A stretch of DNA of 56,289 bases from Bacillota bacterium. Lineage in GTDB: Bacteria > Bacillota_I > Bacilli_A > RF39 > UBA660. Positions 21,317-52,229 of this stretch are shown here, piece after piece. The DNA is taken from contig SVAX01000006.1 of NCBI GenBank assembly GCA_015059155.1, positions 1-56,289 on the forward strand, read 5' to 3'. The first letter of the stretch is position 1, and every line of letters begins with the position of its first letter. The notes below the pieces were generated by a model. That model ran no database searches and was not told the origin of the DNA. It was given only the letters and a program-made list of their open reading frames with translations. A program made the translations under genes and the position numbers.

Positions 21317-21400
21317 TGGTGGAAGGAGATGGAGTCGAACCATCGAACCCGAAGGAACAGATTTACAGTCTGCCGCGTTTGGCCACTTCGCTACCCTTCC
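21317..21400 (-). tRNA. tRNA-Tyr (GUA)
   Basis: Acceptor GGAAGGG paired, long variable arm, anticodon loop CTGTAAA with GTA, encoded CCA. This is the tRNA that the tyrS T-box at 49790-50005 would be expected to sense. Confidence 0.95.
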
Positions 21401-48449: not shown

Positions 48450-49691
48450 TTAATTATCTAATATTACTTTTAAAAATACTTTTTTACCTTTTTGAATAAC
48501 TATAAATCCATCTTTAAAATCTATTTCATTAATTATTCTATTAACATCATTTTCTTTTATTTGGTTGATCGAAATACCATTTTGTTCTACTAATCTTCTA
48601 GCTTCTGATTTTGATGATGCTAAATTTATTTCAACTAATAAATCTAAAATATTAATGTCTAATTTTTCTTTAGATATATTTGTAGATGGCATATTATCTG
48701 AAACACCTTTATTACTAAATAATTCTTCGGCTATTTGTTTTGCATTAATTGCTTCTTCTTCTCCATGAACTAATTTTGTTACTTCAAATGCTAATAACTT
48801 CTTAGCTTCTCTTATATCATTATTACATAGTTCTTTAATTTCTTCCATTTCCATTCTTGTAAAGAATGCTAAACTTCTTTCTACATCTTCATCAAATGAA
48901 TTTATCCAAGCTTGGAAGAAATCAAAAGCGCTTGTTTTTTCTCTAGATACCCAAAGTGTTCCTGTTGCAGTTTTACCCATTTTTTCTCCATCAGCTTTTA
49001 ATAAAAGTGGACAAACAAATCCAAATAATGGATCTATTTTTTTACCTTCACTAAATCCAATCTTACGAGATAGATCAACACCAGCTAAAATATTTCCCCA
49101 TTGATCACTTCCACCTATTTGAAGTTTACAATTAAATTCTTTATTTAAATGTACAAAGTCAAATGCTTGCATTAACATATATCCCATTTCTAGGAATGTT
49201 AATCCTCCTTGTTCTAATCTCTTTTTGTAACATTCTGCACTAAGCATATTGTTAACATTGAAATGTACTCCAATTTCTCTCATAAAATCAACATAAGTTT
49301 TATCACAAATCCAATCTGCATTATCAACAATAATAGCTGGATTATCTCCATCAGTTTTTACAAATCTTTTTACTAATTCTTTAACCTCTGCTTTATTGTG
49401 AGCTACTTCTTCTTTTGAAAGCATTTTTCTCATATCACTTTTCCCTGTTGGATCTCCCACTAAAGCAGTAGCACCACCAACTAATATGATTCCTCTATGC
49501 CCAAAATCTTGTAACCATCTAAACATTGTTAAAGCAAAGAAGTGTCCTATATGCAAACTATCTGCTGTAGGATCTATTCCTAAGTAAAACGTCATTGGGT
49601 CTCCATTAATCAAATCAATAATTTCTTTTTCATGTGTTAAATCTTTTACATATCCTCTTTCTTTAAGGATATCAAATAAATTTTTTTTCAT
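48450..49691 (-). CDS. tyrS: Tyrosyl-tRNA synthetase
   Basis: A 413-residue class I synthetase that charges tRNA-Tyr. HIGH motif in DSLHIGHFFALTMFR, KMSKS-type motif KMGKT in LLKADGEKMGKTATG, Tyr-binding YMLMQAFDFVHL and GGSDQWGN. A C-terminal S4 domain (about 345-410) is complete. Its AGGAGG site (49700-49705) lies inside an upstream Tyr-rich reading frame that overlaps the first 20 bp of the gene. Regulated by a T-box. It sits between remnant-attachment repeats beside rpsI, an unusual place for an essential gene. Confidence 0.97.
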   Translation of the reverse strand: MKKNLFDILKERGYVKDLTHEKEIIDLINGDPMTFYLGIDPTADSLHIGHFFALTMFRWLQDFGHRGIILVGGATALVGDPTGKSDMRKMLSKEEVAHNKAEVKELVKRFVKTDGDNPAIIVDNADWICDKTYVDFMREIGVHFNVNNMLSAECYKKRLEQGGLTFLEMGYMLMQAFDFVHLNKEFNCKLQIGGSDQWGNILAGVDLSRKIGFSEGKKIDPLFGFVCPLLLKADGEKMGKTATGTLWVSREKTSAFDFFQAWINSFDEDVERSLAFFTRMEMEEIKELCNNDIREAKKLLAFEVTKLVHGEEEAINAKQIAEELFSNKGVSDNMPSTNISKEKLDINILDLLVEINLASSKSEARRLVEQNGISINQIKENDVNRIINEIDFKDGFIVIQKGKKVFLKVILDN

Positions 49692-49770
49692 TTTTATTTC
49701 CTCCTAAATAATTTGTATAGTTAATTAAATTACATTCACCAAAGTAATAATAGTAATATTCACTATCCAT
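49672..49770 (-). CDS. Tyrosine-rich leader peptide upstream of tyrS (32 aa)
   Basis: An intact frame from ATG (49768-49770) to TGA (49672-49674). Residues 5-9 are five consecutive Tyr (codons TAT TAC TAT TAT TAC at 49744-49758), and two more Tyr are at 18 and 21. An ideal ribosome-binding site, AAGGAGGTGA (49776-49785), sits 5 nt upstream. It begins 20 nt after the T-box terminator U-run, so it is translated only from transcripts that read through. It covers the tyrS ribosome-binding site and overlaps 20 bp of tyrS. Ribosome stalling at the Tyr codons when tyrosyl-tRNA is short would change access to the tyrS start. The arrangement recalls the trp-linked rtp leader peptide of Bacillus, where T-box and leader peptide act in series. 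Confidence 0.7.
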   Translation of the reverse strand: MDSEYYYYYFGECNLINYTNYLGGNKNEKKFI

Positions 49771-49789
49771 ACAAATCACCTCCTTGAAA

Positions 49790-50005
49790 ATAAAAAACGA
49801 GCAAACATCCAAAAAGGACGAATTACTCGTGGTACCACCTTTGTTTGTAATAATAGTCTATTACCTCTTATTGATAACGGATACTATCCGATTAAAATCA
49901 TCATTTGTAATTCATTATTTCTTTTTTACTTATTTCCACCAACCATAAGCTCTCTATTAAATATTTAAAAATAATTACTTCGAATGAATCGCTTTTTAAT
50001 TAACT
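49790..50005 (-). promoter_or_regulatory. T-box riboswitch of tyrS
   Basis: The minus strand contains the T-box core AGGTGGTACCACG (49829-49840), Stem I landmark GGTTGGTGGAAA near 49940, and a probable specifier TAC in GAATTACAAATG (49907-49909), a Tyr codon. The terminator is CGAG...TCC-ttttt-GGA...CTCG followed by six T (49791-49830). Uncharged tRNA-Tyr would stabilise the antiterminator and allow tyrS expression. Confidence 0.9.
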
Positions 50006-50011
50006 GTTAAT

Positions 50012-50040
50012 AATATAGCACTTTTTTTATATTTTGTCAA
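50012..50040 (-). promoter_or_regulatory. Promoter of the T-box-tyrS transcript
   Basis: Minus-strand TTGACA (50035-50040), 17-nt spacer, TATATT (50012-50017). Confidence 0.8.
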
Positions 50041-51224: not shown

Positions 51225-52229
51225 TTACTCAAAATAATCTAATTTCATATTTTTACGTACTCTTCTCATTACTTCTTCTGCTTTTCTCTTAGTTGCCTCT
51301 GTACCTTCTTTTAAAATTCTTTCTACTTCTTCTGGTCTTTCTTCGTAGTATTTTCTTCTTTCTTGCATTGGTTTCAAGAACTCAGATATTTCTCTTGCAA
51401 GTTCTTTTTTACAGAATACACAACCTCTTTCTCCGTTTTTACATTCACTACAAACGGCAGCTATATTAGGATTTTTAATAAGTTTGTGATAATAATAAAC
51501 CATACACACTTCTGGATCTGCTGGATCATCTTTTCTAAGTTTATTTGGATCTGTAACTGCACTCATAACCTTTTTTGTAACTGTTTCTTCGTCATCAGAA
51601 AGATAAATACAATTATTAAGTGATTTACTCATTTTTTCATTACCATCTAATCCTTTAATTCTAGGTGTAGAACTTAATACCGGCTCAGGTACATTAAATG
51701 TTTCTCCGTATATATTATTAAATTTTCTAACTATTTCACGAGTTTGCTCTATATGAGGTAATTGATCTTCCCCAACAGGAACTATATTTCCATTAACACA
51801 TGCTATATCAGCAGCTTGACTTACTGGATATCCTAAAAAACCATAGGTAATACCTTCTCCATCACTACCAAATAATTCTTTTTTTTGCATTACTTCATGC
51901 TTAGTTGTTGGATTTCTATAAAGTCTAGGTACGGATACTAAATTAGAAAAATATACAGTTAGTTCTGCTACTTCAGGAATTAAAGATTGTATATAAATAT
52001 GACATTGTTTTGGATCAATTCCTGCAGCTAAATAATCAAGTGCTAATTCATGCACATTTTCTCTAACTTTTTCTGGGTTATTAAAGTTATCTGTTAAAGC
52101 TTGAACATCAGCAATAAGTATATATGTATTATAATCATATTGCATCTTTACTCTATTTTCTAATGAACCAAAATAATGTCCTAAATGTAATTTACCTGTT
52201 GGTCTATCTCCTGTTAATATTGTTTTCAT
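51225..52229 (-). CDS. trpS: Tryptophanyl-tRNA synthetase with a Cys cluster
   Basis: A 334-residue class I synthetase. HIGH-type KLHLGHYFGSLEN, KMSKS in DGNEKMSKSLNNCIYL. In the anticodon-binding part it has Cys in EVCMVYY followed 20 residues on by C-x6-C-x2-C (ECKNGERGCVFC), close to the C-x22-C-x6-C-x2-C cluster that binds [4Fe-4S] in Thermotoga TrpRS. The partner tRNA-Trp at 14536 also has an odd T-loop. AAGGAGG site. No T-box is visible in the short upstream gap. Confidence 0.95.
   Translation of the reverse strand: MKTILTGDRPTGKLHLGHYFGSLENRVKMQYDYNTYILIADVQALTDNFNNPEKVRENVHELALDYLAAGIDPKQCHIYIQSLIPEVAELTVYFSNLVSVPRLYRNPTTKHEVMQKKELFGSDGEGITYGFLGYPVSQAADIACVNGNIVPVGEDQLPHIEQTREIVRKFNNIYGETFNVPEPVLSSTPRIKGLDGNEKMSKSLNNCIYLSDDEETVTKKVMSAVTDPNKLRKDDPADPEVCMVYYYHKLIKNPNIAAVCSECKNGERGCVFCKKELAREISEFLKPMQERRKYYEERPEEVERILKEGTEATKRKAEEVMRRVRKNMKLDYFE

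Follow-up and report, generated by a model that had tools for sequence, protein, structure and literature searches.

A conserved tyrosine-rich leader frame behind a tyrosine T-box as a candidate second sensor of tRNA charging upstream of tyrS

To our knowledge, tandem sensing of one uncharged tRNA at both transcription and translation has been established only for tryptophan, at rtpA (yczA, anti-TRAP), where the leader frame rtpLP ends at the Shine-Dalgarno (SD) sequence of the regulated gene. In the account of Chen and Yanofsky (2003, 2004, cited in PMC11255114), rtpA of B. subtilis combines a T-box with tRNA-dependent ribosome stalling, the two sensing uncharged tRNA-Trp in tandem. A different tandem is found in some Clostridium botulinum strains, in which an adenine riboswitch/T-box(Tyr) pair precedes tyrZ (PMC9481103). 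A comparative study from 2005 placed most Firmicutes synthetase genes under T-boxes and none under classical attenuation (PMC1262725), and a later comparative study described hisS paralogs of bacilli with His leader peptides (PMC2965389). A search of the open-access literature, with most subscription papers outside its reach, found neither a Tyr leader peptide for a tyrosyl-tRNA synthetase (TyrRS) nor a T-box combined with a tyrosine leader peptide. Neither for tyrosine nor for a synthetase gene does control by a T-box and a leader peptide appear to have been described before.

The window analyzed here is a stretch of 56,289 nucleotides from a Bacillota bacterium, in which tyrS is preceded on the minus strand by the elements listed in Table 1. 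The T-box was recognized with an E-value of 3.5e-23 when the region was scanned alone, and its TAC specifier is cognate both to the downstream TyrRS and to the tRNA-Tyr(GTA) of the genome. The leader frame begins approximately 26 nt past the terminator hairpin and stops inside tyrS, with both the SD and the start codon of tyrS lying within it. On these points the original prediction, made from the sequence of the window, was borne out: the Tyr T-box with its core, specifier and terminator, the 32-codon frame with a perfect SD, a Tyr run at codons 5–9 and seven Tyr in all, and the overlap of this frame with the SD and start of tyrS are all present.

Table 1. Elements of the tyrS locus, with positions in the window.
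Feature	Position	Strand	Basis or details
Sigma-70-type promoter TTGACA-17-TATATT	50040-50010	minus	Consensus match, at the expected place 5' of the T-box
Tyr T-box leader	49811-50001	minus	RF00230, 100.7 bits, above the gathering score of 93
Specifier codon TAC (Tyr)	49907-49909	minus	Placement in the specifier loop, GAAT-TAC-A
T-box core AGGTGGTACCACG, binds the tRNA acceptor end	49828-49840	minus	
T-box intrinsic terminator and U-run	49792-49830	minus	34-nt hairpin, -15.8 kcal/mol, then TTTTTT
Leader SD AAGGAGGTGA	49776-49785	minus	AGGAGG invariant across the aligned relatives
Leader frame MDSEYYYYYFGECNLINYTNYLGGNKNEKKFI, 32 aa, seven Tyr	49672-49770	minus	Open frame; present in close relatives
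Five consecutive Tyr codons (TAT TAC TAT TAT TAC), codons 5–9	49744-49758	minus	Sequence; exact TAYx5 site
Conserved long hairpin; holds the clustered Tyr codons (all five), the start codon of the leader and part of its SD	49706-49781	minus	Fold
tyrS SD AGGAGG	49700-49705	minus	
tyrS, tyrosine--tRNA ligase, 413 aa, ATG at 49691	48450-49691	minus	TIGR00234, 410 bits
tRNA-Tyr(GTA), presumed T-box ligand	21317-21400	minus	ARAGORN

The arrangement resembles that of rtpA in that a T-box acting at transcription is followed in series by a short leader frame with many cognate codons, and the features that define the rtpA type, a leader with its own SD between terminator and gene and a run of cognate codons, are found in the window. 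It differs from rtpA in that the codons are Tyr rather than Trp, that the regulated gene encodes an aminoacyl-tRNA synthetase, and that the leader is folded into a conserved long hairpin and in most cases extends over the start of the next gene. The T-box itself is of the kind known from tyrS and tyrZ of Firmicutes (RF00230, a TAC specifier and a terminator before the TyrRS gene). However, such T-boxes ordinarily run straight into the gene, as they also do in more distant relatives of the window, whereas here a leader frame lies between the two. As in the C. botulinum tyrZ tandem, one of two TyrRS genes is preceded by a Tyr T-box together with a second RNA device, but in C. botulinum a metabolite riboswitch, situated upstream of the T-box, takes this role and in the window a leader frame. 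We favour with moderate confidence a two-stage sensor of tyrosyl-tRNA charging before a usually accessory TyrRS gene, as a form of tandem control similar to that of rtpA.

The locus resembles classical amino-acid attenuators in having a short leader frame with a run of cognate codons. In those attenuators, however, the frame ends before a competing terminator and antiterminator, whereas in the window the leader lies behind a T-box and no terminator or antiterminator was found 3' of the leader frame, which ends inside tyrS; the sole terminator is that of the T-box, upstream. A classical transcription attenuator, for which a terminator and a competing antiterminator are expected downstream of the leader, was therefore rejected for this locus. 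Sixteen tyrS genes from Christensenellales and related Clostridia (L078, L080, L082, L088, L090-L093, L096-L099, L105, L107, L111 and L113) have no T-box; a leader of the form M..LFA..SYYYYY[IK] precedes these genes, followed by a terminator 72–122 nt past its stop and, in most of them, by a competing antiterminator. Judged from these sequences, the sixteen leaders probably mediate classical tyrosine attenuation of tyrS, and would then be an independent sign of Tyr-codon reading in its control.

A scan of genome contigs identified 23 close relatives of this TyrRS (78–95% identity, L040-L062). The leader is present in all of them, and the T-box was visible in all but one, L053, the contig of which starts at the leader. 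The leader peptides of these relatives are variants of MDSDYYYYYFDDCNLINYTNYL. In the TyrRS tree, from which the incomplete L061 was left out, the remaining 22 relatives and the window protein formed a single clade (100/100). The frame, its SD and the Tyr cluster were thus kept in the alignment of close relatives, as anticipated in the original prediction, and they were kept even where the downstream gene has been replaced. The predicted run of five Tyr, on the other hand, is not strict: Tyr9 is often Cys, and the minimum present in every leader is three clustered Tyr. The leader ATG is retained in all leaders except L062 and L143, which both have ATA. More distant relatives with approximately 58–68% identity (L063-L066, L068-L070, L072 and L074, and also L012-L014, L159, L161, L162 and L164) have a Tyr T-box without the leader. 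Relatives with the same T-box and no conserved frame had been named as evidence that would speak against a second sensor; they do occur, but outside the clade and not within it, which suggests that the leader is a clade trait and the T-box/leader pair is specific to the clade. In L067 and L071, the sequences MDSDYYYS and MDSDYDYS are in frame with tyrS, and may represent an N-terminal extension of tyrS with an internal start.

The hosts are a group of uncultured gut-type bacteria. Among 386 genomes of the family, the motif was identified in 12 (13 sites) and the reversed pattern in none, and each of the 13 sites, where the contig could be read, has a T-box upstream and a TyrRS gene downstream. 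A covariance model identified 14 sites in 13 of the family genomes, and when 296 genomes from other families of the class were searched for the element, the matches remained confined to the window's own family. The downstream gene is not always the same. In L126 and L128, the T-box and leader precede a TyrRS that is only about 33–34% identical to that of the window and thus non-orthologous, in L144 they precede a TyrRS of the same kind, and in L143 they precede a DAHP synthase gene (TIGR01361). The T-boxes of L067, L071, L126, L128, L143 and L144 were confirmed by Rfam. Since the leader and its T-box have remained together through exchange of the gene behind them, there is good reason to regard the two as a single functional unit, and from the sequences the T-box and leader together appear to behave as a portable module.

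Several of these loci showed features of their own. L143 (G425, 1283-1635) has the ATA start codon and an apparent remnant of a tyrS start between the leader and the DAHP synthase gene. L144 (G238, 1259-1588) combines a different stem I (GAAGGUA, Gly-like specifier) with the usual antiterminator and a Tyr leader; its downstream TyrRS frame is interrupted, and the locus is either a recombinant or an assembly chimera. One genome carries two copies of the T-box and leader or of the leader (G306:C8:45582 and G306:C27:19017), one of them at a contig end.

The TyrRS type of the window is present in 18 of the 386 family genomes, a patchy distribution that is consistent with horizontal transfer. A second TyrRS, approximately 38–44% identical to that of the window, was found in 22 of 24 distinct carrier genomes, which suggests that the regulated enzyme is usually accessory. 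The exceptions are G659, with one TyrRS only, and G343, with a truncated divergent TyrRS and a fragment; the window's own assembly, which is 70% complete, contains one TyrRS. An accessory aminoacyl-tRNA synthetase is often expressed only once the main enzyme has failed or been inhibited, and a tight two-step lock would therefore make sense.

We compared the conservation of the leader with that of the gene behind it. Over codons 1–20, the mean leader identity was 97.5%, 94.8% and 93.6% at codon positions 1, 2 and 3, as compared to 88.9%, 95.1% and 65.3% in tyrS, and the leader as a whole was more conserved than the T-box (mean identity about 95% versus 90%). The variation at third codon positions that the original prediction had looked for was thus not seen, these positions being 94% identical between leaders, and the conservation cannot be read as coding selection alone. 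No exchange between TAT and TAC was observed in the leader Tyr codons of the set, whereas in tyrS the codon differs in 41% of pairs at columns where Tyr is invariant. The hyper-conserved third positions and the lack of TAT/TAC exchange argue for a constraint at the RNA level beyond any coding one. When the placement of the 19 distinct substitutions was randomised, significance was reached for none of stop avoidance (P = 0.27), pair keeping (P = 0.33) and a synonymous excess, the number of changes being small, and the substitutions therefore do not establish coding selection.

Other features point to a frame that is read. The AGGAGG of the leader SD is invariant, including the bases outside the stem. 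The distance from the ATG to the end of the 3' arm is 59, 62 or 56 nt only, corresponding to changes of +3 or -3, and no stop occurs before the 3' arm, whereas the spacer behind the 3' arm varies freely, between 14 and 24 nt, and reaches 59 nt before the DAHP synthase gene. The +3 insertions of L060 and L143 look like one event, and so only two or three indels support the frame. The divergent L144 leader shows synonymous differences and an in-frame deletion of 3 nt, and retains the SD, the start and three Tyr. Taken together, we infer from these sequence patterns that the leader is probably translated. The distance between the two start codons, 73 to 85 nt, places them in any of the three frames relative to each other, which led us to reject a frameshift fusion of the leader to tyrS.

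The leader region has a predicted folding energy of -20.7 kcal/mol, as compared to -10.3 +/- 2.5 kcal/mol for shuffled sequences (z = -4.16; 0/200 shuffles). Essentially the same fold was obtained in most relatives; it is partly rearranged in L060 and L055, and the folds of L067 and L071 do not contain the hairpin. The 5' arm comprises the GGUGA of the leader SD, AUG1 and the Tyr codons, and the 3' arm stops just short of the tyrS SD. The predicted hairpin, which the original prediction did not include, hides the SD and start of the leader itself, but not those of tyrS. The unpaired probability of AUG1 is near 0 in most free folds, suggesting that initiation on the leader at equilibrium should be poor. 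The pairing is kept in 94.3% of the cells of the relatives' alignment, and covariation is limited to one pair changed on both sides, with none in the RNAalifold consensus, the sequences being too alike.

The alternative that best survives these data is that the hairpin itself is the functional element, acting in mRNA stability after T-box processing, in protein binding or in insulating the tyrS SD, with the Tyr-rich frame as a by-product of its A+U-rich arms. The low z-score, third positions conserved about as well as the others, the burial of the leader start in the stem, and the tolerance of recurrent Tyr9-to-Cys changes and of two ATA start codons all favour this explanation. However, a hairpin alone does not call for an invariant AGGAGG that extends beyond the stem, for an ATG at the proper distance from an SD, or for an in-frame Tyr run behind a Tyr T-box. 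Furthermore, L144 keeps its SD, start and three Tyr despite the synonymous changes and the deletion, and L067 and L071 keep MDSDY-Y though the hairpin is absent from their folds. We therefore regard a hairpin with an incidental frame as unlikely, yet as the alternative that deserves most attention.

In the two-stage sensor that we favour, the T-box would be bound by uncharged tRNA-Tyr, upon which RNA polymerase would pass the terminator, and the read-through RNA would expose a strong SD and a short, Tyr-dense frame. When Tyr-tRNA is ample, ribosomes would traverse the leader and end on the SD and start of tyrS, such that tyrS initiation is blocked. When Tyr-tRNA is scarce, a ribosome would halt at codons 5–9, well upstream of the tyrS SD, which would remain free. 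In 27 of the 28 leaders the frame extends over the SD of the next gene, whatever its stop position and frame, a feature that this occlusion model requires, as it does for rtpA; the logic is not applicable to L067 and L071, in which the leader is in frame with tyrS.

The two sensors of tyrosyl-tRNA in series that were originally predicted are thus consistent with the conserved frame, SD and Tyr cluster, but relief of a masked SD by the stalled ribosome was not supported. A ribosome-sized block on codons 5–9 in constrained folds gave no consistent change in the exposure of the tyrS SD, and the sequestration model, in which the stall opens a masked tyrS SD, found no support in them. Since the tyrS SD is not newly exposed in the folds by a ribosome at the Tyr codons, stalling, if it regulates, would do so by sparing tyrS from occlusion. 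The hairpin may, speculatively, serve as a latch that, once formed, makes the start of the leader inaccessible but does not include the tyrS SD in its stem; the leader would then have to be translated from the nascent RNA onwards, and continuously, for tyrS to stay off. A fuller version of the two-stage reading, which we put forward tentatively and at somewhat less than even confidence, is that the Tyr T-box and a hairpin-latched Tyr-codon leader form a portable double lock that travels as a unit among unrelated genes (a DAHP synthase gene and those of two kinds of TyrRS) and silences the accessory TyrRS unless transcription and translation both report uncharged tRNA-Tyr. If true, tandem sensing would have a second example, this time for tyrosine and upstream of a synthetase gene, which would point to a design that recurs and not to a peculiarity of Bacillus. 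The natural variants, namely the Tyr-to-Cys changes, ATA starts, in-frame fusions and gene swaps, offer ready-made comparisons.

Translation of the leader could also serve to boost translation of tyrS by coupling or re-initiation, as a ribosome antenna without tyrosine sensing. Leader-gene re-initiation has been proposed for many bacteria (PMC4833913), and the leader stop is near or past the tyrS start in nearly all cases. However, the stops are spread from -9 to +43 relative to the start of the next gene (-28 in L143) with no conservation of the relative frame, as compared to a weak peak at 15–16 nt in Firmicutes (PMC4833913), and the tyrS SD needs no opening in the folds. In addition, a Tyr run would make the coupling fail exactly when the enzyme is needed, and we consider this explanation quite improbable.

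Nine T-boxes were identified in the genome at E <= 0.001, six of which exceed the Rfam cut-off. A separate, SD-preceded frame between T-box and gene was found only at tyrS and at none of the other eight. The distance from the T-box end to the gene start is 119 nt at tyrS and 31–40 nt for most of the other T-boxes. TAYx5 sites occur six times on both strands of the 1.0-Mb genome, with the reversed control pattern equally frequent, and by our own arithmetic the chance of such a site in a given frame of leader length is approximately 1e-4. That the leader is a functionless chance frame in a conserved 5' region, as the A+T-rich genome with its six TAYx5 sites per Mb might suggest, is highly improbable given its presence in every close relative, its retention across gene replacement and its conservation above that of the T-box. 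The trpS gene of the window (51225-52229) is without a T-box match. A T-box with an apparent AAC specifier (L001, G000:C15:58356-58586) precedes two tRNA genes (anticodon GTT, Asn) and a gatC-like gene, and another with an apparent TGG (Trp) specifier (L009, G000:C6:15836-16014) precedes a dUTPase-like gene. A further T-box (L005, G000:C9:4229-4428) precedes a gene that by eye resembles that of a CYTH-domain protein.
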